From Campylobacteraceae bacterium (GTDB taxonomy: Bacteria; Campylobacterota; Campylobacteria; Campylobacterales; Sulfurovaceae): 64,000 nucleotides of DNA. Made by a program: the position numbers and the translations under genes. Under the pieces are notes generated by a model. That model was not told the origin of the DNA. It ran no database searches and was given only the letters and a program-made list of their open reading frames with translations. Where the stretch lies: contig JALWLW010000010.1 of assembly GCA_027081065.1 (NCBI GenBank), positions 1 to 64,000 of the forward strand, given 5' to 3'. How positions within the stretch are numbered: position 1 is the stretch's first letter; every line of letters begins with the position of its first letter. Of this stretch, positions 23,946 to 35,197 are shown piece by piece.

Positions 23946-24140
23946 AACCTGGATAGTTCGACTACTGTTATTTGTGGTCCAACATTATCTTTTGTGGGAC
24001 ATGTAGTTCATTGGTGTGTGGGTGTCTTCGTTCGAGCTTAGCTTAGTCTGGCGAGAAGATGCCCCCTAAAGATGACTCTCTCCTACACCGTTGGCTTTTT
24101 AGGGCCGGCTTTATGCAGAACGGCTGTTCGGGGTTTCTTA
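23946..24140 (+). ncRNA. Candidate structured RNA, possibly 6S-like
   Basis: This intergenic stretch is clearly richer in G and C than its surroundings and follows an extended -10 promoter. The ends can pair: AACCTGGATAG (23946-23956) with CTGTTCGGGGTT (24124-24135), with G-U pairs and one bulge. Inside are GGTGT/ACACC (24012-24017 with 24085-24090), a 10-bp stem GGGTGTCTTC/GAAGATGCCC (24020-24029 with 24055-24064) and TTGGC/GCCGG at about 24091-24110. A closing stem, a large central loop, an inner stem and an apical hairpin in about 195 nt resemble 6S RNA. I cannot confirm that family. Conserved cores of RNase P, tmRNA and SRP RNA are absent. Confidence 0.5.
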
Positions 24141-24153
24141 TTAAAATTATCTT

Positions 24154-24193: not shown

Positions 24194-25615
24194 TTAGTTC
24201 ATAAATTGAATTAAAAAAGTTGTTCCTTCTTTATTACTTTTTACGCTAAGTTTTCCTTCTAACTCTTGTTCAATAATCATTTTAGAAATATAGAGTCCTA
24301 TGCCATCACTGTTTTTCTTTGTTGAGAAATAGGGGTCAAAAATACGGTGAATAATCTCTTTTGAAATACCCCCTGCATTGTCTTTAACGCTAAGAAGATT
24401 GGTTGATATCTGGATGGTGATGTTAGGATTTTCTATTTTTTTACTAACAAGGGCATCTTTGGCGTTGTTGATGAGGTTTAAGAGTACTTGTTCAAACTCA
24501 TTTTTATTACCATAAATCTTAAAATCACTTTCTATTGAACAGTTTATAGTAATATTATTGGCATTGAGTGCTGAAGTGCTAATGTTAAGAACATGTGTTA
24601 AGGCACTCTCAACCGAAAAGGACTCTTTCTTTTTTGAGGGGTTATAAAAATCTCTAAAGCTGTCAATGGTATTGGACATGTATTCTATTTGTTTATTGGC
24701 TTCAACAATCAGCATGTTGGAATCTTTATGCTCTTGGTGCATTCGTTTTAAATTCATGTGAGCCATGGACAAAAAGTTAAGAGGTTGTTTCCATTGATGT
24801 GCAATGATTGAAATCATCTCTCCCATACTGGCTAAGCGTGATTGTTGTAGTAAAAGTGATTGTTGCATTTTTTGTTTTTCATCAAGTAGTTTAAATTTGT
24901 AAGAGATGGCTAAAGAGAGAAAGATGGATTCAATGGCAAAGGTAATGTGTAGAAATGGAAAAGGCACACCAATAAGTTTAATGAGTCCTAAGTGTTCAAT
25001 GATGGCTACAAAAATAGAGATATACCAGCCAATCATTAAGAAATAAAAGGGCATATCTTTCTCTTTAATGGCACGACTTGCTTCACTAAGAACTAGCCAA
25101 ATAGGGATAAAGATAGGGATAAAGTTTGTCAAAATAGCAACAGAAAAAATAAAGGTAAATAAGATGTCAAGGAGGGTTAAATATAGCAGTATATTAATAA
25201 GCCTATTTAATTTTTTAACTTGATAACTTTTTAAAAACTCTTTAATGAAAAGTAAAGAGAATAAGACAACTAAGGCACGGGTTAATGAGAATAGTAGTGA
25301 TGAGTGCAATCCAAATATCTCATCAAAAGGTGAAATGTAAATACTATCTAAATTAATCAGAAAAAAGAGCGTTGAGAGTTGGGCTAAACCATAAAATAGA
25401 TATTGACGATTACGAATGTAATAATAAAATGCAAGATTATAAATAGTAGCAGAGATGATAACCCCCATAGAAATAGCAGCGATTAAAAAAGCCAAATTTC
25501 CAAAGGTATGCATTGTACCTGTATGGTTAATAAAGTGTTCATCATAAAAAAAGTAGCTGGTGATAAAGGCGAGAATGATGATAAAAAGAAGTTTTAATTT
25601 TAGAATATTATCCAT
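24194..25615 (-). CDS. 7TM sensor histidine kinase
   Basis: The 473-residue kinase has a first membrane helix, a further block of about seven helices in residues 35-235 of the 7TMR-DISM type, a short coiled coil, and a kinase core. The H-box reads IAHQWKQPLN with phosphoacceptor His273, the form found in many Campylobacterota kinases. The ATP-binding domain shows the N-box NLINNAKDAL and the G boxes VKDNAGGI and DGIGLYISK. There is no periplasmic sensor domain of any size, so the signal is probably sensed in or at the membrane. It overlaps the upstream response-regulator gene by 8 bases, so the two form one cognate system. Confidence 0.9.
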   Translation of the reverse strand: MDNILKLKLLFIIILAFITSYFFYDEHFINHTGTMHTFGNLAFLIAAISMGVIISATIYNLAFYYYIRNRQYLFYGLAQLSTLFFLINLDSIYISPFDEIFGLHSSLLFSLTRALVVLFSLLFIKEFLKSYQVKKLNRLINILLYLTLLDILFTFIFSVAILTNFIPIFIPIWLVLSEASRAIKEKDMPFYFLMIGWYISIFVAIIEHLGLIKLIGVPFPFLHITFAIESIFLSLAISYKFKLLDEKQKMQQSLLLQQSRLASMGEMISIIAHQWKQPLNFLSMAHMNLKRMHQEHKDSNMLIVEANKQIEYMSNTIDSFRDFYNPSKKKESFSVESALTHVLNISTSALNANNITINCSIESDFKIYGNKNEFEQVLLNLINNAKDALVSKKIENPNITIQISTNLLSVKDNAGGISKEIIHRIFDPYFSTKKNSDGIGLYISKMIIEQELEGKLSVKSNKEGTTFLIQFMN

Positions 25616-26297
25616 AAAGATTAATCTTGTAACCTGTTTTTGAGATGTTCTCTATGACCTCTTTTCCTACGAGTTTACGTGTTTTTCTAACTAAGGTTCT
25701 AAGGCTGTCAGCTGTCATGACCTTGTCATACCAAATTTCATTTTCTATTTCAGTGTAAGAGACAATTCGGTTTTTATTCTTAATTAATATATTTAATAAC
25801 ATGCTTTGGTATTGTGAGAGCGAAATAATTTTATCTGTTTTAGCGAGAGACTGGTTAAGTGTATCATAATAGAGTTCAGGGGTTAGCTGGATGATGGAGG
25901 GATTTTTAGATTCTAAAAGCTCAAAACTGTTTTCTAAGGCTTCCATAATCTCTTCTTCTTTAAGGGGTTTGCCTAAATATTTAATAAGATTTAAAGAGAC
26001 AGCCTCTAAAAGATAGTCTACAGAGGTGTAAGCCGTGGTAATAATGATGGGGGTTTCTTTGTCTTTTTTACGAATTTTACGACAAAGTTCTAAGCCATTT
26101 AGATGAGGCATCTCGATGTCCGTGATAATCATATCAGGTTTTTCTTCTTCATAAATTTGAAAAGCTTCAATGCCATCTTGGGCTTCAAATATCTCTGTAA
26201 AATAGGGAGCTAAAAACATTTTTGTAACCATGCGAATAGGAGCTTCATCTTCAACATAAAGGAGGGTGTATTTAGGATTTTTTAAGTTTTCGCTCAT
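25608..26297 (-). CDS. OmpR-family response regulator
   Basis: The 229-residue protein has a receiver domain with the acidic pair Glu16-Asp17, phosphoacceptor Asp60 (IITDIEMP), Thr88 and Lys110 (LGKPL), and a C-terminal winged-helix DNA-binding domain (about 135-229, ending in the family-typical SKTGYKINL). It is cotranscribed with the histidine kinase. Its start codon lies inside a PhoB-like direct repeat (26292-26308) shared with the divergent lipoprotein gene, so autoregulation is likely. The same repeat precedes the protease genes; see the findings. Confidence 0.92.
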   Translation of the reverse strand: MSENLKNPKYTLLYVEDEAPIRMVTKMFLAPYFTEIFEAQDGIEAFQIYEEEKPDMIITDIEMPHLNGLELCRKIRKKDKETPIIITTAYTSVDYLLEAVSLNLIKYLGKPLKEEEIMEALENSFELLESKNPSIIQLTPELYYDTLNQSLAKTDKIISLSQYQSMLLNILIKNKNRIVSYTEIENEIWYDKVMTADSLRTLVRKTRKLVGKEVIENISKTGYKINLYG

Positions 26298-26308
26298 TTA
26301 AAAGTCAC
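26292..26308 (+). promoter_or_regulatory. PhoB-like direct repeat, copy 1
   Basis: GCTCATTTAAAAGTCAC: two half-sites (GCTCAT and AGTCAC) with an 11-bp period, in the divergent region between the response regulator and the 333-aa lipoprotein gene. A TACTGT hexamer at 26319-26324 lies at the same spacing as the -10 boxes of the other two copies. The least conserved of the three. Confidence 0.6.
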
Positions 26309-26359
26309 TTTTTTATTCTACTGTTAGTTATGGTACACTATCATTAATAAAGGAAAGAT

Positions 26360-27361
26360 ATGTTTGTATATAAAATGCAATTAAGTTTACTATTTATTGT
26401 ACTTTTGAGTATTTGGGGATGTGGAACAATGGCAAAAGAGGATGAGAGTCTCTCTGTTCCTCAAAAAGTTTCTATTGATATGCCAAAGGCTTTAGAAGCA
26501 AAAAGCAGTACTCGTAAAAAACTTAAAAAGTTCTCCTATTTTAAAGAGGATGAGAATAAGAGTTCAGCCTATTTAGAATTGAAAGAAGATGTGAAATTTT
26601 TAGAAGAACAACGTATATCACTTGAAGTTAATTTACTTTTTATTAATGAGGTAATTGATAAGGTTGATAGTCGATGTAAAAATATGCCTCAAGAAGAGCG
26701 TTGTATTATTGAAGAGGATAGTCTAACTTTTGTATTTGATGAAAATTTGTCAAATAGATTAAAAAAATTAACATCAGAAGATTTGGGCTATGAGCTTGGA
26801 GATGTTTTAAGTTTTGGTGAGATTGAATTTGTTGAGCATACGACACAAAATAAATATAGCTACAGTTTAAAAATTGATACTGCATTTGAAGATGAAAAGG
26901 GTATTTCTTTTGAGCGTATCTCTTGGTCAAAGGATGAAAAACTTATTTTTTCAGAATATATTGAAGAGAGTGTAGAGGAAAAGAGTAGTATTGTAATTGA
27001 CTTTTCTAAAAAAGAAGACAATAGCAAACAGATAGTCACTGATAATAGCTTTTTTAATAAAGTAGATAGCAGTTCTGATGTCTTTCATTTTGAGATGCTA
27101 AAAAAATCAGATGAAGTTGAGACGTATGAGTTAAACTCTACCTCTCTAGCTACTGATAGTGATGCAAAGAAAAATAGTTTTTCTTCTGTGGGTAAACTTT
27201 CTAATTTAGGTGGATATTTGAATTTTACAGGAGAGTTTGATAGCGAACTATTTAAAGAAAATGATAGTTTTGATGGAAATGGTAATATTATTACTTCTAG
27301 CTATTGTTACTCTGGAATGGATTGTGACTTGGAAGATGAAGATAGTTGGTTTGATTTTTAG
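26360..27361 (+). CDS. Lipoprotein of unknown function in the protease locus
   Basis: The 333-residue product has a short lipoprotein-type signal (lipidation cysteine probably Cys21, in LSIWGCG). The rest is strongly acidic, rich in Glu, Asp, Ser and Lys, with no domain I recognise. A repeated pattern of charged strands (about 150-260) suggests a beta-rich body. The C-terminus contains YCYSGMDCDLEDEDSW with a close Cys pair, and the chain ends in a Trp-Phe-Asp-Phe run. The gene is divergent from the two-component system, preceded by AAAGGAAAG and by copy 1 of the direct repeat, and followed after about 70 bases by the M60 peptidase gene. It may be a partner, inhibitor or surface anchor for that peptidase; this is inference from position only. 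Confidence 0.75.
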   Translation: MFVYKMQLSLLFIVLLSIWGCGTMAKEDESLSVPQKVSIDMPKALEAKSSTRKKLKKFSYFKEDENKSSAYLELKEDVKFLEEQRISLEVNLLFINEVIDKVDSRCKNMPQEERCIIEEDSLTFVFDENLSNRLKKLTSEDLGYELGDVLSFGEIEFVEHTTQNKYSYSLKIDTAFEDEKGISFERISWSKDEKLIFSEYIEESVEEKSSIVIDFSKKEDNSKQIVTDNSFFNKVDSSSDVFHFEMLKKSDEVETYELNSTSLATDSDAKKNSFSSVGKLSNLGGYLNFTGEFDSELFKENDSFDGNGNIITSSYCYSGMDCDLEDEDSWFDF

Positions 27362-27364
27362 AAG

Positions 27365-27381
27365 GGTCATTAAAAGGTCAT
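27365..27381 (+). promoter_or_regulatory. PhoB-like direct repeat, copy 2
   Basis: GGTCATTAAAAGGTCAT, a perfect 6-bp direct repeat with an 11-bp period. A -10-like TATCTT starts at 27392, ten bases after the second half-site. It lies in front of the M60 peptidase gene and closely resembles the E. coli Pho box layout (CTGTCAT repeats, 11-bp period, replacing the -35). Confidence 0.72.
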
Positions 27382-27431
27382 TTTTTTAAGATATCTTTTT
27401 AGTTAAAGAAATAAGTAAAAGGATGTTAGAG

Positions 27432-30400
27432 GTGAAAATATTACAATTATTGTCCATTTTAGTGATTTTTATCTTTATTGGTTGTAGAGGAGATGAAAGT
27501 GCAGAGAGAACAACTTCTACTACTGATACGATAGAAACAGTAGCAGAGCAAGAGATAAAAGTTTTAGATGTGAATGATACTGTTCCCAAAGGGACATTGG
27601 TAGGGGCAGTGACTCTTCCTCTAAAAGAAAATGACAATATAAAGTCTGTAGAGTTAATAGATCCAGATTCAGAACAGTTTGATATTACAAGCGATGGTAA
27701 AATAAGTACAAGAGTAGCATTGCTAAAAATATCTAATAGTTTAGATGATAAATTTGAAAAGAGAGTGAAAAAAGAGCTCATTTATAATTTTAGAATTAAA
27801 ATTACCTATGATTCTAAAAAAGTTGTTTATATAAAAATGAGAATAATAGTTTATATTTTTATGCAGGTAACAGATTCAGATAGACCCATAGGTGATGAGA
27901 CTCAAAGTGTAGAGATAAATGAAGGTACAGGGGCTATAGTTAATAGTGCCATCAGAGATGCTTTAAAGTTTGGTAGTGCTTCAGATGTAAGTGAAGTTGA
28001 AATATATAAAGCCATAGAAGATACTTATGCAATACAACAAAATAAATGTGAGACATTATTAAAACGCATCTATCCTAATGGTTTAAAAGTACGTTCTAAT
28101 TTAGAAGGAGTATCAAGTATTAGTAGTTTTACTATAAATAGTTTTGATTGGATACCCGTGATTGTAGCCTATAACAATGGTGTACCAGAAACCTATCTAG
28201 CGATTAAAGAGTTACCAAATGGTGTAAGAATGGCGATATCTAGCATCCCTCTTTTTGATGAGGTAGATATGAAAGGTTACTATAGTGATGGTGTTGACAA
28301 AACTGAGATACTTAATGTACTTAAGTGGCTTTCGCATGAAAGAGGTGAGAATTTAGGTAGTTTTAAATCGGATGTAGAGTTTTTAAATACTTCCCTAAAA
28401 CTCTTGTGGCATGATGGAAGTTCAGGATGGGGATTTGGTGGTGGCTGGGGAAAATTGTGGAGTGTTGAGTCTTGGATTCAATCCAACTTCTCTTTACTTT
28501 CTGGTGTAAGCTTAGCTAGTAATGGGTTACCAACACAGTGGCAAAAAGATTATGGATTACCATCTGGTGCTAATAATGCATCAGAGTATGATATTTTTAT
28601 GTTGAGTGATGCAAAAGATGCTGATATTCAAAGAGTTCTTGATGTTGCTACGAATGAAGCTTCTAAAGGACTTTTTATGCATGTGGCCCCAAAAAATTAC
28701 TACAATGATCACAATAGTATTACCGGAACAGATGGAGGTTGGAATTTTCGTACACAAAAAACTTATGGTGATGCACCAAGTATAGCAGCACAATGTAGTT
28801 CTAGTTTAGATGGAGGTTTAGCTCAACTGGTTTCTGATTTAAAAAATGAAAACTTTCATTATGCTTTTCCACAGATTAATGGAGGAAGAGACCAAAATGA
28901 CCGTTGGAATATTCCTCTAAGTAATGGTAAACAGGTTAGAGATTATACTGATACGGTAGATGGGAAAACCCTTAATAATAAACTCTTTACGAAATTAGAT
29001 AGTTTAATAGAGAGTACACGTTTTTTTGATTATAAAAAAACAGATATATTTGCAGATAAGCGTGAAGATAGTAATAGGTTACATAAACTTCTTATATTGC
29101 TAGGAGATAAATATAGAGAAAATATTAGTTACCCAATGGATAAGGTAGATACCGATAATACAACTTTTTTCAAGGCACTTTATGCTGATAACTCTATTAG
29201 TTACTTTAGAAAAAGTAATACCTATCAGTCTAAAATGGGAACATTTTTAAACCATGATTATGATGCTAATCGTTATGCAAATAATCAGACATTAAATGCT
29301 AAAACAACGACAAATAAAAGTAAAAATTTTCAAACAACTAAATTTTCTGAGCCAACTACTATGGGTGTTTATGCTCCTCCTGGAAAAGAGATAGTCATTA
29401 AGAGAACTGATAGTGAACAAGGGGTTAAAGTATGGATTGCCATAAACTTTACACGTGGAGGAATAGGGGCAAACAATAGTATGCCGTTTACTGCTAAGAA
29501 TCTCTACAATAGACCACAAACAGTGAGTAGTCATTGGATAGAGATAGATACAGGAGAAGAGATACGTCTCTCTACTCCTTATGGAGGACCTATTTATGTA
29601 TGGTGGAGTGAACAGACAAGTGATGTAAAACCAATTATCTCTTTTGATATTGAGAACGTTTTAGAGCATCCTGTACTCTATTTGGATGGAAGTGAAAGTG
29701 AAGCTCAAAAAGCTCAAGAGATTGCAGACTTTACTACAGCTCTTAGTCAAAATGATAACTTCTCATGGGCAGAGATTAAGACACCATTTGCTGAACTGCA
29801 TAGCCTTATGGGTAATATGATGAGTGTCATTAACAATGGTACTTATGGTGGCGATGTGGGAAAATATGTTGAGTATATGAACAAATATCTCATTTTAGGT
29901 AACTACCACTGGGCAGGGTTCAATGGTGGAGGATTGGCAGGACTAAATTCTAGTGTTGTTGACTTTTGTACAGAGCATAATTTAGACTGTACCAATAGTG
30001 TTATTCATCAAAAGCCAAGGATTCAACATATGAACTCTGATGCTAATGCTTTGTGTGGAAATGCTTGTGCAGGGAACCCTATAGATTTTGACCATGGTAT
30101 TGACCCTATTGCTCAACTTCCAAGCCATGAGATGGGGCATAATTTGCAACGTGCTAGAATGACACTTCCTAATGGAGGAGAAGTATCAAATCTAAACTCA
30201 ACTTTTAGAACTTCAAGAGCTTATGCACTTGACCAAGGAAGAGACTATTATGGAGGATGGGATCAGATTCGTGTGGAGTTTAATATTGTATTTGATAAGT
30301 TAAAGCAATATAATACAGATGGAAGCATACCTCAAATTCAAGGACCTCTTAACAATGAAGGATGGGCAGGAGTTGCCTTTCATGCACAACTTATGTGGTC

Positions 30401-30830
30401 GAGTTCAACCGATGAGAATAGCTCTTGGGATTTTTACACCAAAATGTGGCTACATGAAAGACTCTATACAGATGCACTCTCAACACAGAGCAAATGGGAA
30501 GTAGAACGTAGTAAATTAGGCTTTAGTACTTATAGTTGGGAAGAGGCAAAAGCTATATCAAGTATAGACTATATGACCATTGTAAGTTCTTACATTACTA
30601 ATCGTGATTATAGTGATTTTTTTGCACTATGGATGATGAAGGTTTCAGATGCAGCCAAAATACAAATAGTAGCTAATGCCCATCCTTCTAAACAAGCTAA
30701 AGCCTACCTTTATATTTCTCAAGGGTTTTCTGGTTGGTGGAATTGGTATGAGAATGGCATTATTTGGCCTGTGCATTTACCAACAAAATGGATAGATATG
30801 AGTGATGCCTCTTTAGCTGTTTATGAGTAG
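27432..30830 (+). CDS. Secreted M60-family zinc metallopeptidase (AcfD/SslE-like lipoprotein)
   Basis: The product is about 1,132 residues. I choose GTG 27432, with AAAAGGA eight bases upstream, giving MKILQLLSILVI and a lipidation Cys18; an ATG at 27423 has no room for a ribosome-binding site. After a cadherin-like beta domain (about 40-140) and a long middle region comes the M60-type segment: MGVYAPPGKEIVIK is the family's beta-sandwich signature, and LPSHEMGHNLQ holds the zinc motif HExxH (His899, Glu900, His903). M60 enzymes such as SslE, AcfD and enhancins cleave mucin-like glycoproteins. A closing domain is rich in Trp and Tyr. It follows copy 2 of the direct repeat. Substrate here is unknown. 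Confidence 0.87.
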   Translation: MKILQLLSILVIFIFIGCRGDESAERTTSTTDTIETVAEQEIKVLDVNDTVPKGTLVGAVTLPLKENDNIKSVELIDPDSEQFDITSDGKISTRVALLKISNSLDDKFEKRVKKELIYNFRIKITYDSKKVVYIKMRIIVYIFMQVTDSDRPIGDETQSVEINEGTGAIVNSAIRDALKFGSASDVSEVEIYKAIEDTYAIQQNKCETLLKRIYPNGLKVRSNLEGVSSISSFTINSFDWIPVIVAYNNGVPETYLAIKELPNGVRMAISSIPLFDEVDMKGYYSDGVDKTEILNVLKWLSHERGENLGSFKSDVEFLNTSLKLLWHDGSSGWGFGGGWGKLWSVESWIQSNFSLLSGVSLASNGLPTQWQKDYGLPSGANNASEYDIFMLSDAKDADIQRVLDVATNEASKGLFMHVAPKNYYNDHNSITGTDGGWNFRTQKTYGDAPSIAAQCSSSLDGGLAQLVSDLKNENFHYAFPQINGGRDQNDRWNIPLSNGKQVRDYTDTVDGKTLNNKLFTKLDSLIESTRFFDYKKTDIFADKREDSNRLHKLLILLGDKYRENISYPMDKVDTDNTTFFKALYADNSISYFRKSNTYQSKMGTFLNHDYDANRYANNQTLNAKTTTNKSKNFQTTKFSEPTTMGVYAPPGKEIVIKRTDSEQGVKVWIAINFTRGGIGANNSMPFTAKNLYNRPQTVSSHWIEIDTGEEIRLSTPYGGPIYVWWSEQTSDVKPIISFDIENVLEHPVLYLDGSESEAQKAQEIADFTTALSQNDNFSWAEIKTPFAELHSLMGNMMSVINNGTYGGDVGKYVEYMNKYLILGNYHWAGFNGGGLAGLNSSVVDFCTEHNLDCTNSVIHQKPRIQHMNSDANALCGNACAGNPIDFDHGIDPIAQLPSHEMGHNLQRARMTLPNGGEVSNLNSTFRTSRAYALDQGRDYYGGWDQIRVEFNIVFDKLKQYNTDGSIPQIQGPLNNEGWAGVAFHAQLMWSSSTDENSSWDFYTKMWLHERLYTDALSTQSKWEVERSKLGFSTYSWEEAKAISSIDYMTIVSSYITNRDYSDFFALWMMKVSDAAKIQIVANAHPSKQAKAYLYISQGFSGWWNWYENGIIWPVHLPTKWIDMSDASLAVYE

Positions 30831-30839
30831 TAGAATAAA

Positions 30840-30856
30840 GCTCATTAAAAGGTCAT
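30840..30856 (+). promoter_or_regulatory. PhoB-like direct repeat, copy 3
   Basis: GCTCATTAAAAGGTCAT, an 11-bp-period direct repeat followed ten bases later by a perfect TATAAT (30867-30872). It drives the M35/prodomain/S8 operon. Together with copy 2 it shares a 22-base identical stretch extending into the downstream T-run. Confidence 0.72.
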
Positions 30857-30903
30857 TTTTTTAATTTATAATGGTTTATCTTAAAAACATAAAGGATTAA
30901 ATC

Positions 30904-32247
30904 ATGAAAAAATTACTACTACTAAGTTTAGCCCCTCTACTTACTTTTGCAGCTTCTCCTATAGCTGTGAAGTTTAGCATTGATGAAAATGCAGAAAAAG
31001 GAAAAATTTTTGTGAGTGTAACAAATCAATCCAAACAAGATATTGAAATCTTAAAGTGGAATACCCCTTTTGAAAAGACAATTAATGCTGATATTTTTGA
31101 TGTGAATATGGGGGAGAGAGAGAATAGATATATAGGAAGAAGTGTTAAACGGGCAAAACCTACGCAGAATGACTATATGTTACTTGAAGCTGGAGAGACT
31201 GAAAAGGTAATGGTTACGCTACCTACTTATTATAAAATGAGAGAAAAAGGTAAGTATACTGTTCGTTTTGATGGTGAGTTTAAATACCGTTTATTGGATG
31301 ATGCTAAATTAGAAGTCAATGAGATGAGAAAAAAACAGCTTCCTGCTATTGACTTTTCATTTACCCCTTCAACAAAAGAGAAACGCACTTTATGGTTAAA
31401 AAAACCAGCTAAGTTTAACCAGTGTTCCCAAAGTGAAATTGAGACACTTAAAGTTGCTCATGATGATGCTATTAAAATTTCAAAAGAGTCAATGGATGTT
31501 CTAATGAGTGCTCCTAAAAAGACCTCTTCAGAGCGTTATGTTACATGGTTTGGTGCAGTAGATGCCACAAGACAAAAAACGGTAACAGAAGGGTTTAAAA
31601 AGATTTATGATGCTTTTGAAAATAAAAATATTACTTTTGATTGTGGCACATGTAAGCAAGATAGCAGTCTCTATGATGAGACTTATGCTTATGTTTATCC
31701 TGACAGTCAATATCAAGTCTATTTATGTGGTGCATTTTGGAACTCTTCTCGAACAGGTACAGACACACAAGCTGGAACGTTGGTTCATGAAGTTTCGCAT
31801 TTTACTGTAGTTGTTGGTGCAAATGATTATGCTTATGGTCAAGAAGATGCGAAAACTCTTGCAAAAAATAGTCCACAAAAGGCGATTAATAATGCAGAAA
31901 ACTATGATTACTTTGCTGAGAATAATCCAAATTTGAGTATGGATAGAGATGAAGAAGCAAATAATCCTGAACCAGATAATAATTCGAGTGAAGAGAATAA
32001 TGATTCTGAAAGTACAGAAAATGTTGATGATACTCTTTATGATGCAAATGAAGAAGATAAGGCTTTAGACCTTTGTTTTGAGCTAATAGATGATACTGAA
32101 TTTGAAGCATGTTTACTTGCTTGGGAAAGCAAATATTATGCTGATGATGAAAATAGTGATGATTGGGGTGACCCATTAGATGAATCTTGGTATGATGATG
32201 AACTGAACTGGGATGATATTGATTGGTATGCTAAAAGTAAAAATTAA
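30904..32247 (+). CDS. Secreted M35-like (deuterolysin / peptidyl-Lys) metallopeptidase
   Basis: The 447-residue product has a type I signal peptide (about 1-17). Residues 20-145 form a beta-sandwich similar to the N-terminal domain of bacterial M35 enzymes. The catalytic part has HEVSH (His295, Glu296, His299) followed by GANDYAYG with Asp308, which fits the aspzincin pattern HExxH plus GTxDxxYG. The paired Cys segments (DCGTCK, YLCGAFW) could form disulfides. The last 100 or so residues are extremely acidic, with Asp, Glu, Asn and Trp, and look like a disordered or calcium-binding tail. Peptidyl-Lys endopeptidases of this family cut before lysine; that specificity is not shown here. It heads an operon controlled from repeat copy 3. 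Confidence 0.85.
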   Translation: MKKLLLLSLAPLLTFAASPIAVKFSIDENAEKGKIFVSVTNQSKQDIEILKWNTPFEKTINADIFDVNMGERENRYIGRSVKRAKPTQNDYMLLEAGETEKVMVTLPTYYKMREKGKYTVRFDGEFKYRLLDDAKLEVNEMRKKQLPAIDFSFTPSTKEKRTLWLKKPAKFNQCSQSEIETLKVAHDDAIKISKESMDVLMSAPKKTSSERYVTWFGAVDATRQKTVTEGFKKIYDAFENKNITFDCGTCKQDSSLYDETYAYVYPDSQYQVYLCGAFWNSSRTGTDTQAGTLVHEVSHFTVVVGANDYAYGQEDAKTLAKNSPQKAINNAENYDYFAENNPNLSMDRDEEANNPEPDNNSSEENNDSESTENVDDTLYDANEEDKALDLCFELIDDTEFEACLLAWESKYYADDENSDDWGDPLDESWYDDELNWDDIDWYAKSKN

Positions 32248-32262
32248 TTTAAAGGATAAAAG

Positions 32263-32661
32263 ATGCAAAACAAGATTTTAACTTCACTACTAAGCCTAAC
32301 ATTATTAGGCTGTGCAAGTGAATTTTATTATGAAAATGGACAAAAAATTGAACTGGTAAAACTAGAAGCAAATGAAGCTCAACAGAAGAGAAGTGATGAT
32401 GAGGTGAAATATTATAAAACAGCCAAAGGGCATAAGGTTGGTGTTAAAGATGATATTCTTGTAGAGTGTAAAGAGGGTGTAAAGTGCCAAGAGGTTCTTT
32501 CTAAATATGAAGTAGGCTCAATTACTGCTTTAAATGAAACAGTTTTTTTAGTAAAAGTTGCTAAAGGTCAAAATCTTTTTGAACTTTCTCAAAAACTCTA
32601 TGAAGATGATGATATAGCAATTGCACATCCGAATTTTAGAAAAGAGAAGAGGAGAAGATGA
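32263..32661 (+). CDS. Lipoprotein resembling a stand-alone S8 protease prodomain
   Basis: The 132-residue product is a lipoprotein (lipobox LLGC, Cys17). Its C-terminal half (about 60-128) follows the pattern of fervidolysin/subtilisin-type propeptides: a small alpha-beta fold with a strand VKVAKGQNLFELSQKLYED and the end IAIAHPNFR, which is where such propeptides join the catalytic domain. Here the chain stops, and the S8 protease begins as a separate lipoprotein 2 bases later. I infer that it acts in trans as folding chaperone or inhibitor of that protease. The primary call as a lipoprotein is firm; the prodomain role is an inference from pattern and position. Confidence 0.7.
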   Translation: MQNKILTSLLSLTLLGCASEFYYENGQKIELVKLEANEAQQKRSDDEVKYYKTAKGHKVGVKDDILVECKEGVKCQEVLSKYEVGSITALNETVFLVKVAKGQNLFELSQKLYEDDDIAIAHPNFRKEKRRR

Positions 32662-32662
32662 A

Positions 32663-33874
32663 ATGAATTATTATAACTTGAAAATCGTCTCTTCAATTGC
32701 TGCTACCTTACTTTTAACAGCTTGTGGTGGGACGAGTTCCAATGAAACACAAAACGCTTTTTCCTCAACTCCTGAACCTTCAACTTCTTTGATTATGGAG
32801 AATAATAGTAGTACACAAGATAGTACCGTTTCACCTTTACTTGAGACTATCAATAAAGCAAAAAATGAACCTTATTTTAAATATGCTTGGCATATTGATT
32901 CTCGTCAAAGTGTTCTAAATAAAAAGGGTTATGAAGTCAATGAAAATGCTGATATTAATCTTACAGAAGCTTGGAAGTTAAGTATGGGTGAGGGGGTTAA
33001 GGTAGCTGTTATTGATGATGGTGGAGAAGTTGAGCATGAAGATTTAAAAGAAAATATTTTCTTAGCTTACAATGCAGATAATGGAAGCAGTGAAATTAAC
33101 CCAAATTCAGAGCAAGGTTCACATGGAAATACTTGTGCTGGATTTATTGTTTCTCCTATTAATGGAAAAGGAGTTGTAGGTGTTGCACCTCAAGCAAAAA
33201 TGATATTAATTCGTCAAGAAGAAAGTAGTGATGAAAAAGTAATTGAGGCTTTTGAGTATGCTAAGCGTCATGGAGCAAAAGTAATATCTTGTTCATGGGG
33301 TACAGAAGATGTTTCTGAAATTGTTGTCTCTGAATTAAAAAAGATGTATGATGCAGGAATTACAGTACTTTTTGCATCAGGAAATGAAGGGGCGTCTTTA
33401 GATGAAAAGTCTGAAGAGGGTTATGAAATTAATGATGAATCAGAAGTAGAGTGGGTCATTGGGGTTGGTGCTAGTGGAGAGAATAATGATGTCACTAGCT
33501 ATTCTAACTATGGAAAAAATATCGATATCTTAGCTCCTGGTGGTGACACACAAGAGTCTTCAGGTCTCATTGGTTTAGATGATATGGGAGAGAGAGGAGA
33601 TACCAATCAGTTAAATTTGGTGACGAATAACTACTCATTTACCAATGGTACATCCTTCTCTACGCCTATAACAGCAGGGGTTGTAGCATTGATGTATGGA
33701 GTAAATCCAAATATTACACCCAAAGAAGTTAAAGAGATACTTACCAAAACAGCTGATAAAGTTGGACAAAATATTGATGCAGACTATTCTAATAATGACT
33801 TTGATGTAAAACGAGCTTATGGAAAAATTAATGCAGGTCGTGCAATTGTTGAGGCTAAAAGAGTGAATAAATAA
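32663..33874 (+). CDS. S8 (subtilisin-like) serine protease lipoprotein
   Basis: I start this at ATG 32663 (AGGAG eight bases upstream), which gives a clean lipoprotein signal with lipobox LTAC (Cys21); an upstream in-frame ATG at 32621 would bury the signal. The 403-residue protein shows the full catalytic triad: Asp118 in VAVIDDGG, His154 in GSHGNTCAGF and Ser331 in NGTSFSTPITAG, with the oxyanion Asn in ASGNEGA. Residues 22-95 are a Ser/Thr/Asn-rich linker. There is no propeptide domain of its own, but the preceding gene encodes a prodomain-like lipoprotein. It is the last gene of the protease operon; purD follows with a different role. Confidence 0.92.
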   Translation: MNYYNLKIVSSIAATLLLTACGGTSSNETQNAFSSTPEPSTSLIMENNSSTQDSTVSPLLETINKAKNEPYFKYAWHIDSRQSVLNKKGYEVNENADINLTEAWKLSMGEGVKVAVIDDGGEVEHEDLKENIFLAYNADNGSSEINPNSEQGSHGNTCAGFIVSPINGKGVVGVAPQAKMILIRQEESSDEKVIEAFEYAKRHGAKVISCSWGTEDVSEIVVSELKKMYDAGITVLFASGNEGASLDEKSEEGYEINDESEVEWVIGVGASGENNDVTSYSNYGKNIDILAPGGDTQESSGLIGLDDMGERGDTNQLNLVTNNYSFTNGTSFSTPITAGVVALMYGVNPNITPKEVKEILTKTADKVGQNIDADYSNNDFDVKRAYGKINAGRAIVEAKRVNK

Positions 33875-33919
33875 TCTATAGTGTATACTGTCAACAATTT
33901 TTATTGTGGAGAAGTATAA

Positions 33920-35197
33920 GTGAATGTATTAATAATTGGTGCTGGTGGACGTGAATATTCTATTGGGATGGCACTACAAAAAGATGAAAAAGTTGATAGC
34001 CTATATTTTGCCCCAGGTAATGGGGCGACAGATGAGTTAGGAGTCAATTTAGATATTTCTGACCATGGAGAGTTGGCTGATTTTTGTGAAGCAAACAATG
34101 TTGAACTTACCATTGTAGGGCCAGAAGCTCCTTTGGTAGCTGGAATTGTAGATTTATTTGAAGAGCGTGGGTTAAAAATCTTTGGACCTTCTGCACAGGC
34201 TGCACAACTTGAGGGTTCTAAAATATTTATGAAGAACTTTTTAGCACGTCATAATGTTCCAACAGCTAAATATATTGAAACAGACTCTTTAGAAGAGGCA
34301 TATAAATTTATTATGACACTTGAAGCACCTATTGTGGTTAAGGCAGATGGACTTTGTGGTGGTAAAGGGGTGATTATTGCTCAGAATCACAACGAAGCTA
34401 AAAAGGCTGCTGGTGAGATGCTTTCTGGTAACTCATTTGGTGATGCAGGTACTTCAATAGTAGTTGAAGAGTTTTTAGATGGGTATGAGCTTTCTGTGTT
34501 TGCACTTTGTGATGGTGAGGACTACGTGGTGCTTCCAGCTGCCCAAGACCATAAGCGTTTACATAACAATGATGAAGGACCGAACACTGGTGGAATGGGT
34601 GCATATGCTCCAACACCTTTAGTGAATGATGAAATCTATAGAAAATTAGATGAACGTGTTATTGTTCCTACTTTAGAGGGAATGAAAGCAGAAGGAATGC
34701 CTTTTAAAGGGGTGCTGTTTATTGGGGTAATGGTTGTTGATGATGAGCCAATTATTTTAGAATATAACGTTCGTTTTGGTGACCCAGAGTGTGAAGAGCT
34801 TATGCCTCTTATTAAATCTTCTGTTTTAGATTTGTTCTATAAAGGGGCAACGAATGACCTTAAAAACTTAGAACTTGAATTCCATGATAAATTTGCAGTT
34901 GGGGTGGTAATGGCTTCTAAAGATTATCCTTATAAATCGTCTACTCCTGCTGAAATTATTGTTGATGACATTGTTCATGATGAGATTTTTAAAGAACATG
35001 CACACATCTCTTATGCTGGTGTAACAAGAGGTGAGGGTGGAGAGCTTTTAGCCACAGGTGGGCGTGTACTTGTTTGTGTGGGTATGGGTGATAGCATTAA
35101 AGAAGCACAACAACGTGCTTACATGTTAGTGGGACAAGTCCACTTTGCTGGAAAACATTGTCGTACAGACATTGCATATCAGGTTTTAAATAAATAA
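33920..35197 (+). CDS. purD: Phosphoribosylamine-glycine ligase
   Basis: The 425-residue ATP-grasp enzyme makes glycinamide ribonucleotide in purine synthesis. Signatures include the N-terminal NVLIIGAGGREYSI, the ATP-grasp loop VKADGLCGGKGVIIA, PNTGGMGAYAP and VRFGDPECEEL (metal-binding region). Start is GTG with GGAG eight bases upstream. The lptD gene follows after about 15 bases. Confidence 0.96.
   Translation: MNVLIIGAGGREYSIGMALQKDEKVDSLYFAPGNGATDELGVNLDISDHGELADFCEANNVELTIVGPEAPLVAGIVDLFEERGLKIFGPSAQAAQLEGSKIFMKNFLARHNVPTAKYIETDSLEEAYKFIMTLEAPIVVKADGLCGGKGVIIAQNHNEAKKAAGEMLSGNSFGDAGTSIVVEEFLDGYELSVFALCDGEDYVVLPAAQDHKRLHNNDEGPNTGGMGAYAPTPLVNDEIYRKLDERVIVPTLEGMKAEGMPFKGVLFIGVMVVDDEPIILEYNVRFGDPECEELMPLIKSSVLDLFYKGATNDLKNLELEFHDKFAVGVVMASKDYPYKSSTPAEIIVDDIVHDEIFKEHAHISYAGVTRGEGGELLATGGRVLVCVGMGDSIKEAQQRAYMLVGQVHFAGKHCRTDIAYQVLNK

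Follow-up and report, generated by a model that had tools for sequence, protein, structure and literature searches.

Does a two-component system that lies beside three unrelated protease genes in an uncultured Campylobacterota bacterium govern these genes, and if so through which site? We analyzed the 64-kb stretch of DNA that carries the locus (the window). The block comprises seven genes (24194-33874), namely HK, RR, LPa, ImpA, M35, PRO and S8, and all reported block genes were confirmed as open frames in the 64-kb window. A sequence-only reading had proposed a 7TM kinase, an OmpR-type regulator, a lipoprotein and three unrelated proteases at this place, and these genes are indeed present. 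The interval it gave, 26292..33874, includes the proteases but misses the kinase wholly and the regulator almost wholly, as these lie to the left of 26292. The features are as follows.

24003..24133, + strand: purD RNA motif RF01069 (Rfam, 85.2 bits, gathering threshold 41), the left flank of the block
24194..25615, - strand: 7TM histidine kinase, HK (Pfam 7TMR-DISM_7TM, HATPase_c)
25608..26297, - strand: OmpR-type response regulator, RR (Pfam Response_reg, Trans_reg_C), overlapping HK by 8 bp
26294..26314, + strand: predicted RR operator in the divergent RR/LPa promoter, 3 mismatches to the 21-mer
26360..27361, + strand: LPa, acidic lipoprotein, the usual partner of the HK-RR family (model pLDDT 82.7)
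27367..27387, + strand: predicted RR operator 5′ of ImpA, exact 21-mer
27423..30830, + strand: ImpA/IMPa-type metalloprotease (NF038322, 472 bits; PDB 5kdv/7jtv; lipobox; HEMGH)
30842..30862, + strand: predicted RR operator 5′ of M35, exact 21-mer
30867..30872, + strand: TATAAT, predicted -10 element of M35, 10 bp past the second CAT
30904..32247, + strand: M35 aspzincin protease, AsaP1-like (PF14521), with an acidic C-terminal tail
32263..32661, + strand: PRO, separate prodomain-like lipoprotein of 132 aa
32663..33874, + strand: S8 subtilase lipoprotein without a prodomain of its own (PF00082, 166 bits)
33920..35197, + strand: purD, the right flank of the block, used for the empty-site comparison

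The block is flanked by the purD leader RNA and purD, and in two close relatives purD follows the leader without the block. The comparison indicates that, relative to these genomes, the block was inserted between the leader RNA and purD. We considered an island of foreign composition and rejected it, since the GC content of the block resembles that of the flanks and GC3 is similar; only HK and RR are slightly higher (0.31-0.32 versus 0.17-0.29 in the flanking genes). A single terminator-like site was found, inside ImpA.

A phased repeat upstream of LPa, ImpA and M35

The 21-mer TCATTAAAAGGTCATTTTTTT occurs exactly before ImpA and M35, with three mismatches before the divergent LPa, and nowhere else in the 64 kb. 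At up to three mismatches these are three matches in the window, against 0.04 expected. Each site is 56-66 bp upstream of a start codon of the block. The 21-mer is a head-to-tail direct repeat with an 11-bp phase, which is the kind of site bound by OmpR-type regulators, and RR carries a receiver (93.6 bits) and a winged-helix domain (36.4 bits, both Pfam) as is typical of the OmpR/PhoB family. A generic sigma-70 scan was uninformative (45 found, 45.5 expected).

The repeat is also present at related loci. As many promoter regions of the relatives are near-identical the counts are not independent, but a CAY..CAY pair has a lag of 11 in 19 of 24 promoter regions, any other lag between 5 and 30 reaching at most 2, while mononucleotide shuffles gave a mean of 0.12 and a maximum of 2/24 regions. 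A TANNNT box follows at a spacer of 10 in 17/20 pairs; it is also found at a spacer of 5 in 15/20 pairs, which counts against the spacer-10 geometry. When promoter regions of orthologous HK-RR loci were picked by gene order, 16 of 21 contained the repeat and five had no CAY..CAY pair as the pattern was defined. Across the genomes the pattern matched 22 times in 10/19, the reversed pattern never.

The type of half-site appears to track the kinship of the regulator. The RR closest to that of the window (81%, genome G538) is accompanied by TCATT/CCATT half-sites and the next closest (67%, G523 C57) by one TCATT half-site; the remaining relatives with a pair have ACAYT. The window sites are of the TCATT type, unlike the ACAYT of most relatives. 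With a matrix built on the sites of 16 relatives the LPa site of the window ranks 10th and both protease sites fall outside the top 15.

Given the matching sites before LPa and two protease genes, the regulator likely switches on the set together. We therefore suggest, with a probability of roughly 0.7, that RR turns on the protease genes of the block via the 11-bp-phased repeat. Activation could proceed in the following steps. Some envelope signal would activate the 7TM kinase. Phosphorylated RR would then bind the head-to-tail repeat at the -35 position, about 10 bp before the TANNNT box; this geometry is seen in the promoters, the binding is our assumption. The bound regulator would drive LPa, ImpA and M35-PRO-S8. 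PRO starts 15 bp past M35, and the three genes are thus presumably co-transcribed. No operator was found 5′ of PRO in 17/17 PRO-S8 loci elsewhere (up to 300 bp in view), so control of S8 in the window would rest on read-through from M35. In the envelope, lipid anchors would hold ImpA, PRO, S8 and LPa, while M35 would be exported. Together the enzymes might cleave proteins at the cell surface, O-glycosylated ones among them, a substrate suggested by IMPa. Control of the proteases by the adjacent regulator, as the sequence-only reading had it, is thus supported as a prediction, by the phased site common to LPa, ImpA and M35 and by the same architecture at orthologous loci.

Regulator and proteases in other genomes

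Our initial reading was that the regulator serves the lipoprotein only, and we abandoned it when we saw the operator common to the proteases. In this alternative RR governs its partner lipoprotein (and itself), and the proteases came in later as neighbours and have control of their own. Gene neighbourhoods, as we read them, speak for it: an LPa-type lipoprotein adjoins the regulator at 14/18 HK loci, no homologues of the window proteases are found at those loci, and at 17/17 PRO-S8 loci the regulator and its site are absent. That the two-component system is dedicated, as had been claimed, is hence not supported. Against this alternative stand the exact 21-bp copies, which in 64 kb precede only ImpA and M35, and two further genomes. 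In G538 the closest HK (75%) and its RR adjoin an M35 gene bearing a site of this kind, and in G013 HK-RR is followed by an exported S8 subtilase with a site. We consider control of the lipoprotein only to be unlikely.

Co-occurrence of regulator and proteases elsewhere is thus partial. G538 combines regulator, M35 and site, and G013 regulator, S8 and site, but the full set of M88, M35 and S8 was found nowhere besides the window in the genomes searched, and among the HK-RR loci examined only that of G538 has a homologue of the window proteases beside it. ImpA and M35 are rare. The 57 matches to ImpA are the window itself, 4 near relatives (66-92%) and 52 proteins at 39% identity or less; plasmids gave 3 matches in 72,556 records (26-27% identity) and viral contigs none. 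In G001 the regulator, an ImpA and PRO-S8 are present but on different contigs, and M35 is absent. Its ImpA matches that of the window only at phmmer E = 1.7e-56, against 875 bits on the family model, and therefore looks like another subfamily; the frame runs off the contig and so the promoter is out of view. Three genomes (G298, G515, G488) have M35 although no window-type HK was found in them at the chosen threshold. A search for M35 in the 17 PRO genomes gave no match and neither did its controls, although the query matched in other searches. The portion of the open-licence literature covered here held no comparable protease set in Campylobacterota/Epsilonproteobacteria.

The repeats might also be Pho boxes of another OmpR-type regulator (PhoB/PhosR), the proteases then answering to phosphate and not to the adjacent kinase. 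GTCAT-11bp-GTCAT resembles the E. coli Pho box. However, equivalent repeats lie beside orthologues of the same RR in many genomes, with a half-site that varies with the RR clade, and the adjacent RR scores 76 bits on the PhoB model (cut-off 296), which makes this reading improbable. That the identical 21-mers are recombination scars from the insertion of ImpA between LPa and M35 is very improbable: they do flank ImpA on both sides, and LPa lacks the C-terminal part that most relatives have, but a third, diverged copy precedes LPa, the distance to the start codon is similar for all copies, and the 11-bp phase and the -10 geometry are common to the promoters of relatives.

ImpA, M35 and the split subtilase

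ImpA was first taken for an M60 protease on account of HEMGH. The metalloprotease motif is right (residue 902, invariant in 5/5 aligned), the family is not. Peptidase_M60 (PF13402) has no match in ImpA at E = 0.05 and M60-like_N stays below its cut-off (18.3 versus 23 bits); M60 proper was therefore rejected, and IMPa-type, kin of MEROPS M88, is the better name. With IMPa of Pseudomonas aeruginosa (M88) it has in common a match to the NCBIfam model ImpA_fam_HExGH (472.1 bits, cut-off 250; residues 507-1097 to profile positions 287-859 of 885), the Pfam domain IMPa_helical (70 bits) and the HExGH motif; unlike in IMPa, residues before about 500 are unmatched by the model.

The M35 assignment was borne out (Aspzincin_M35, PF14521, 141.1 bits, cut-off 30; HEVSH at 295, GANDYAYG at 305). 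AsaP1 of Aeromonas salmonicida (PDB 2x3a) matches at E = 9e-56, residues 17-343 aligning to 22-341 of 343 with the N-terminal domain included. Unlike AsaP1, the protein has an extra acidic tail of 104 residues (38 Asp/Glu) and its gene is located before a subtilase pair.

The triad of S8 (PF00082, 166.3 bits) is D118, H154 and S331, as reported, when numbered from the ATG at 32663. The stand-alone prodomain-like protein PRO is a separate gene as had been noted, but it is half of a conserved split subtilase pair which is kept without the regulator: in 17/17 Campylobacterota loci found, PRO is directly 5′ of a prodomain-less S8. No match to the PRO profile was found within the S8 proteins (0/18, best E = 0.68), and at loci L004, L008 and L017 only 36-46 residues precede the AWH/SWH motif, with which the catalytic part begins. 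The pair resembles the Aeromonas sobria protease ASP and its external chaperone ORF2, where a subtilase without its own propeptide is likewise encoded next to its partner; PMC9549277 terms AspA one of two subtilases without propeptide. PRO differs in being upstream of the protease, in the window and in 17/17 loci, whereas ORF2 is downstream, and in having a lipobox. The best PDB sequence matches of S8 are Mirolase and subtilisins, with kexin far lower.

Among 350,542 chains the top Foldseek match of the PRO model is 3wqb_B (ORF2; probability 1.00, TM 0.53/0.66), at a weak E of 0.036, no match falling below E = 0.001. Pfam ORF_2_N scores 17.0 bits in PRO, below the cut-off of 29.2, and a profile search of the PDB with the PRO alignment brought up no convincing match (best E = 0.44). 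The likely role of PRO is that of a prodomain supplied to S8 in trans, which would aid folding and cap the active site until released. Alternatively PRO could be a standing inhibitor that protects the producer, and not a folding chaperone. Prodomains and ORF2 inhibit too, the latter ASP with an IC50 of 84 nM according to PMC5638518. But S8 has no other prodomain, and the position of PRO just a few bases ahead of S8 suggests that it is needed when S8 is made, so that we regard a purely inhibitory role as rather unlikely. As trans-prodomain systems, the PRO-S8 pairs would lengthen a short list of such subtilases, to many uncultured Campylobacterota.

Environmental Campylobacterota are better known as oxidizers of sulfur and hydrogen. 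Protease genes with a predicted operator occur in three genomes: both ImpA and M35 in the window, M35 in G538 and S8 in G013. We put forward tentatively, and at somewhat less than even odds, that an undescribed HK-RR-lipoprotein module family of Campylobacterota serves as a switch for surface enzymes and recruits protease genes by setting its 11-bp-phased operator in front of them; here it would have built a mobile block with a split subtilase of two lipoproteins, whose separately anchored prodomain controls the protease in trans. The predicted surface-proteolysis programme in environmental Campylobacterota is directly testable, its regulator, operator and targets now being named.

Kinase and lipoproteins

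The reported 7TM kinase and OmpR-type regulator agree with the Pfam matches. In HK 7TMR-DISM_7TM and HATPase are above cut-off and HisKA is just under (24 versus 26.9 bits). The domains are those of OmpR/PhoB-family systems, and the 11-bp direct repeats are putative operators of the type such systems use; unlike there, the 7TM kinase pairs with a lipoprotein family without a clear PDB match. LPa gave no Pfam match at E = 0.05, and a fold search with its model reached a best E of 0.076, with TM of at most 0.31 among the matches listed. The LPa family may offer a new fold and a partner in sensing.

LPa is acidic as described (pI 4.5). ImpA, PRO and S8 each agree with a simple lipobox pattern; LPa, which has W at -2, does not, but the candidate lipid-anchor Cys of LPa is invariant in 17/17 aligned sequences, that of the window included. 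The proposed four lipoproteins among five secreted products are therefore plausible, and display of the lipoproteins at the envelope is likely, as judged from these signals. The fifth product, M35, begins with what looks by eye like an ordinary signal-peptide-like stretch.

Gene content and position of the block

The block stands between a purD leader RNA and purD, and its two-component system is encoded leftwards:

24003-24133, purD leader RNA motif (RF01069, from Rfam)
24194-25615, leftward (-) strand, 7TM histidine kinase (HK)
25608-26297, leftward (-) strand, OmpR-type response regulator (RR)

Rightwards follow the genes for an acidic lipoprotein (LPa), an ImpA/IMPa-type metalloprotease (ImpA), an AsaP1-like M35 protease, a prodomain-like protein (PRO) and an S8 subtilase. 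The genes are as described in the sequence-only reading, with some corrections. Its interval holds LPa to S8 and leaves HK and RR to the left; its first protease, taken for M60, is above the cut-off of NCBIfam ImpA_fam_HExGH (472 bits) but is not matched by Pfam Peptidase_M60; and S8 should properly start at ATG 32663, a single base past the PRO stop. An excerpt of PMC7518263 assigns IMPa to M88. The M35 protease carries an acidic tail beyond the AsaP1-aligned part (31933-32244; 104 residues, 38 of them Asp/Glu). The block lipoproteins are presumably lipid-anchored, and the protease substrates proposed earlier (mucin-like or matrix glycoproteins, prey material or detritus) are putative.

In the window purD starts at 33920, and 9.8 kb of inserted genes separate it from its leader. 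Ten of the 14 relatives searched have the motif, always about 30-180 bp before purD; one of the four without a detected motif is near a contig end. G001 shows the same order as the window (cation efflux-hemD-motif-purD) without the block, G003 (purD 88%) shows motif-purD without the block, and the alignments of both to the window end at 24140-24146 and restart at 33898-33908. Compared with these two genomes, the window thus carries the block as an insertion. The gene before PRO-S8 in G001 (L001:6590-7363) shares 79-81% identity with the neighbour of HK-RR-LPa on contig C57 of G523 (L122:29-802), the MurB_C domain being matched in the latter copy. As a further hint, two parts of the block lie beside one and the same gene in these relatives, as if a single site had exchanged pieces of the block.

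A predicted operator of the response regulator

The intergenic gaps before ImpA and M35 contain identical copies of the 21-mer TCATTAAAAGGTCATTTTTTT, and the divergent RR/LPa promoter has a form with three mismatches. Allowing up to three mismatches, these 64 kb contain three matches on both strands versus 0.04 expected, and none of 100 shuffles had three. The site begins 66 bp (LPa), 56 bp (ImpA) and 62 bp (M35) before the start codon. It is a direct repeat with a period of 11 bp, a known form for OmpR/PhoB-type regulators. We infer that RR binds this operator and activates transcription; M35, PRO and S8 would be co-transcribed.

The divergent promoters of relatives show a recurring CAY..CAY pair, 11 bp apart. 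We tabulated 24 regions. Gene order defined 21 of them (in 20 the region separates RR from a divergent gene, in one it lies ahead of RR), and three are protease promoters picked because their site was already known (ImpA and M35 of the window, M35 of G538). The lag-11 pair occurs in 19 of the 24 regions and in 16 of the 21 chosen by gene order, counts which are not independent because several regions are near-identical; other lags from 5 to 30 reach at most 2 each, and shuffled regions gave a lag-11 mean of 0.12 (maximum 2). Since TANNNT is frequent both 10 bp (17/20 pairs) and 5 bp (15/20) past the second CAY, the predicted -10 position is ambiguous. Off the table are G003 C133 (lipoprotein behind HK, 11-bp repeat seen by eye), G523 C36 (broken RR), G536 (contig end, site present), the third pair of G013, the second pair of G064 and the own RR start of G538 (contig end).

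In a scan of 19 genomes the pattern ACAYTTTTTNNACAYTTTT matched 22 times, in 10 of the genomes, and its reversal never. By reading of the neighbourhoods, 19 precede a gene: twelve lie in RR-divergent promoters (two overlapping, two aimed at RR), three before one exported protein family, three before other lipoproteins and one before an exported S8 subtilase in G013. The remaining three are without a clear downstream gene (one in G010, two in G405). Within the exported family, only the G013 member gave a match to the beta-propeller domain PF09826. In G013, G008 and G405 the phased operator is followed by exported proteins whose N-terminus is of the WQLIG type (L064:4315-6792, L065:5994-6698, L066:2-619).

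Among 175 family genomes, the site followed by TANNNT after exactly 10 bp matched 14 times in 12 genomes, the 9-bp control four times in four, and the reversed pattern once in each scan. None of the four 9-bp matches is on a contig with HK (HK scan, E<=1e-110). Neighbourhoods were read for 12 of the 14 10-bp matches, without the two in G549: four are at HK loci, one is before the G538 M35 gene, one before the exported family in G405, and several others are upstream of exported proteins.

Regulator, lipoprotein and proteases in other genomes

HK orthologues were found in 13 of the 175 family genomes (E<=1e-110; 18 loci; at most nine candidates scored per genome) and in three of 397 genomes of a class sample (E<=1e-90; at most four). 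Neighbourhood reading shows that 14 of the 18 loci adjoin an LPa-type gene, usually divergent from RR, beside HK instead in G523 C458 and G003 C133; two have an LPa fragment nearby (G530 C27, G523 C36), and two (G536, G538) meet the contig end on the LPa side. The alignment of 17 LPa-type sequences has 10 invariant columns; the window LPa is matched by eight of its 16 relatives (phmmer, E 1e-3), and the other eight are matched by a profile built from the first nine sequences (E 1.6e-93 to 9.6e-14). The window LPa (26360-27361) is without the C-terminal part present in most relatives. In its confident structure model (pLDDT 82.7, pTM 0.78) the strands are long and antiparallel; the PDB offers no clear match, and the fold is perhaps new. 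More distant HK-RR loci have other lipoproteins (G012, G013, G014) or an exported protein (G064); the comparison of neighbours covered only homologues of the window's proteins, the G013 S8 being found by Pfam alone.

The proposed co-occurrence of regulator and proteases holds in part, for M35 in G538 and S8 in G013. In G538, contig C138 encodes the HK and RR closest to those of the window (75% and, over the part present, 81%); a few bases beyond lies an M35 gene in convergent orientation (phmmer E 5e-165), with the promoter sequence GTCATTTTTTAGCCATTTTTTTTATTTATAAT. In G013, RR-HK is followed by an exported S8, the site lying 63 bp ahead of its likely start. Two tandem RR-HK pairs of G013 (L035:10147-17116) are seemingly near-identical, with one S8 gene and one lipoprotein gene between them. 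M35 occurs in four of the 175 family genomes (G298, G515, G488, G538), in one of the 397 and in none of 17 genomes with PRO. G298, G515 and G488 show no HK of the window type at threshold, which counts against an exclusive link of regulator and M35. ImpA is above cut-off in two of the 397 genomes (G001, G387) and in none of 17 further genomes with the two-component system or M35, two of which gave weaker matches, one a 184-bit partial in G488. In G001, HK-RR, ImpA and PRO-S8 are on separate contigs and M35 is absent. Across the HK, M35, ImpA and PRO scans, the complete protease set is not known outside the window.

A subtilase and its probable, separately encoded prodomain

A scan of genome contigs for which 40 PRO relatives served as queries found 17 loci, which by title all belong to Campylobacterota (Epsilonproteobacteria) MAGs. 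In all 17 a relative of the window's S8 (42-70%) follows directly, starting -10 to +2 bases from the PRO stop; 13 of these S8 fit a strict lipobox and the other four have an early Cys. ImpA, M35, HK and RR were not detected at these loci at E 1e-4, several contigs being short. All 18 S8 proteins lack a PRO-like stretch (best E 0.68); in three of them just 36-46 residues stand ahead of the AWH/SWH motif opening the catalytic part, too short a stretch for an ordinary propeptide. PRO would act in trans on S8.

The PRO model (pLDDT 82) best matches ORF2 of the A. sobria protease ASP (3wqb_B, probability 1.00 but E 0.036). According to excerpts of PMC5638518, nascent ASP requires ORF2, whose C-terminus occupies the active site and which also inhibits; in an excerpt of PMC9549277, AspA is one of two propeptide-lacking subtilases. 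PRO likely works like ORF2. The ORF2 gene lies just downstream of its protease gene and PRO upstream. Because of this reversed order and a missed Pfam cut-off, we do not assign PRO to the ORF2 family. In two cases a PRO and an M35 relative agree in their source and in the length of their contig (P0061/P0101, 1,935 bp; P0074/P0111, 3,079 bp), which suggests that M35 and PRO may be neighbours on other contigs as well.
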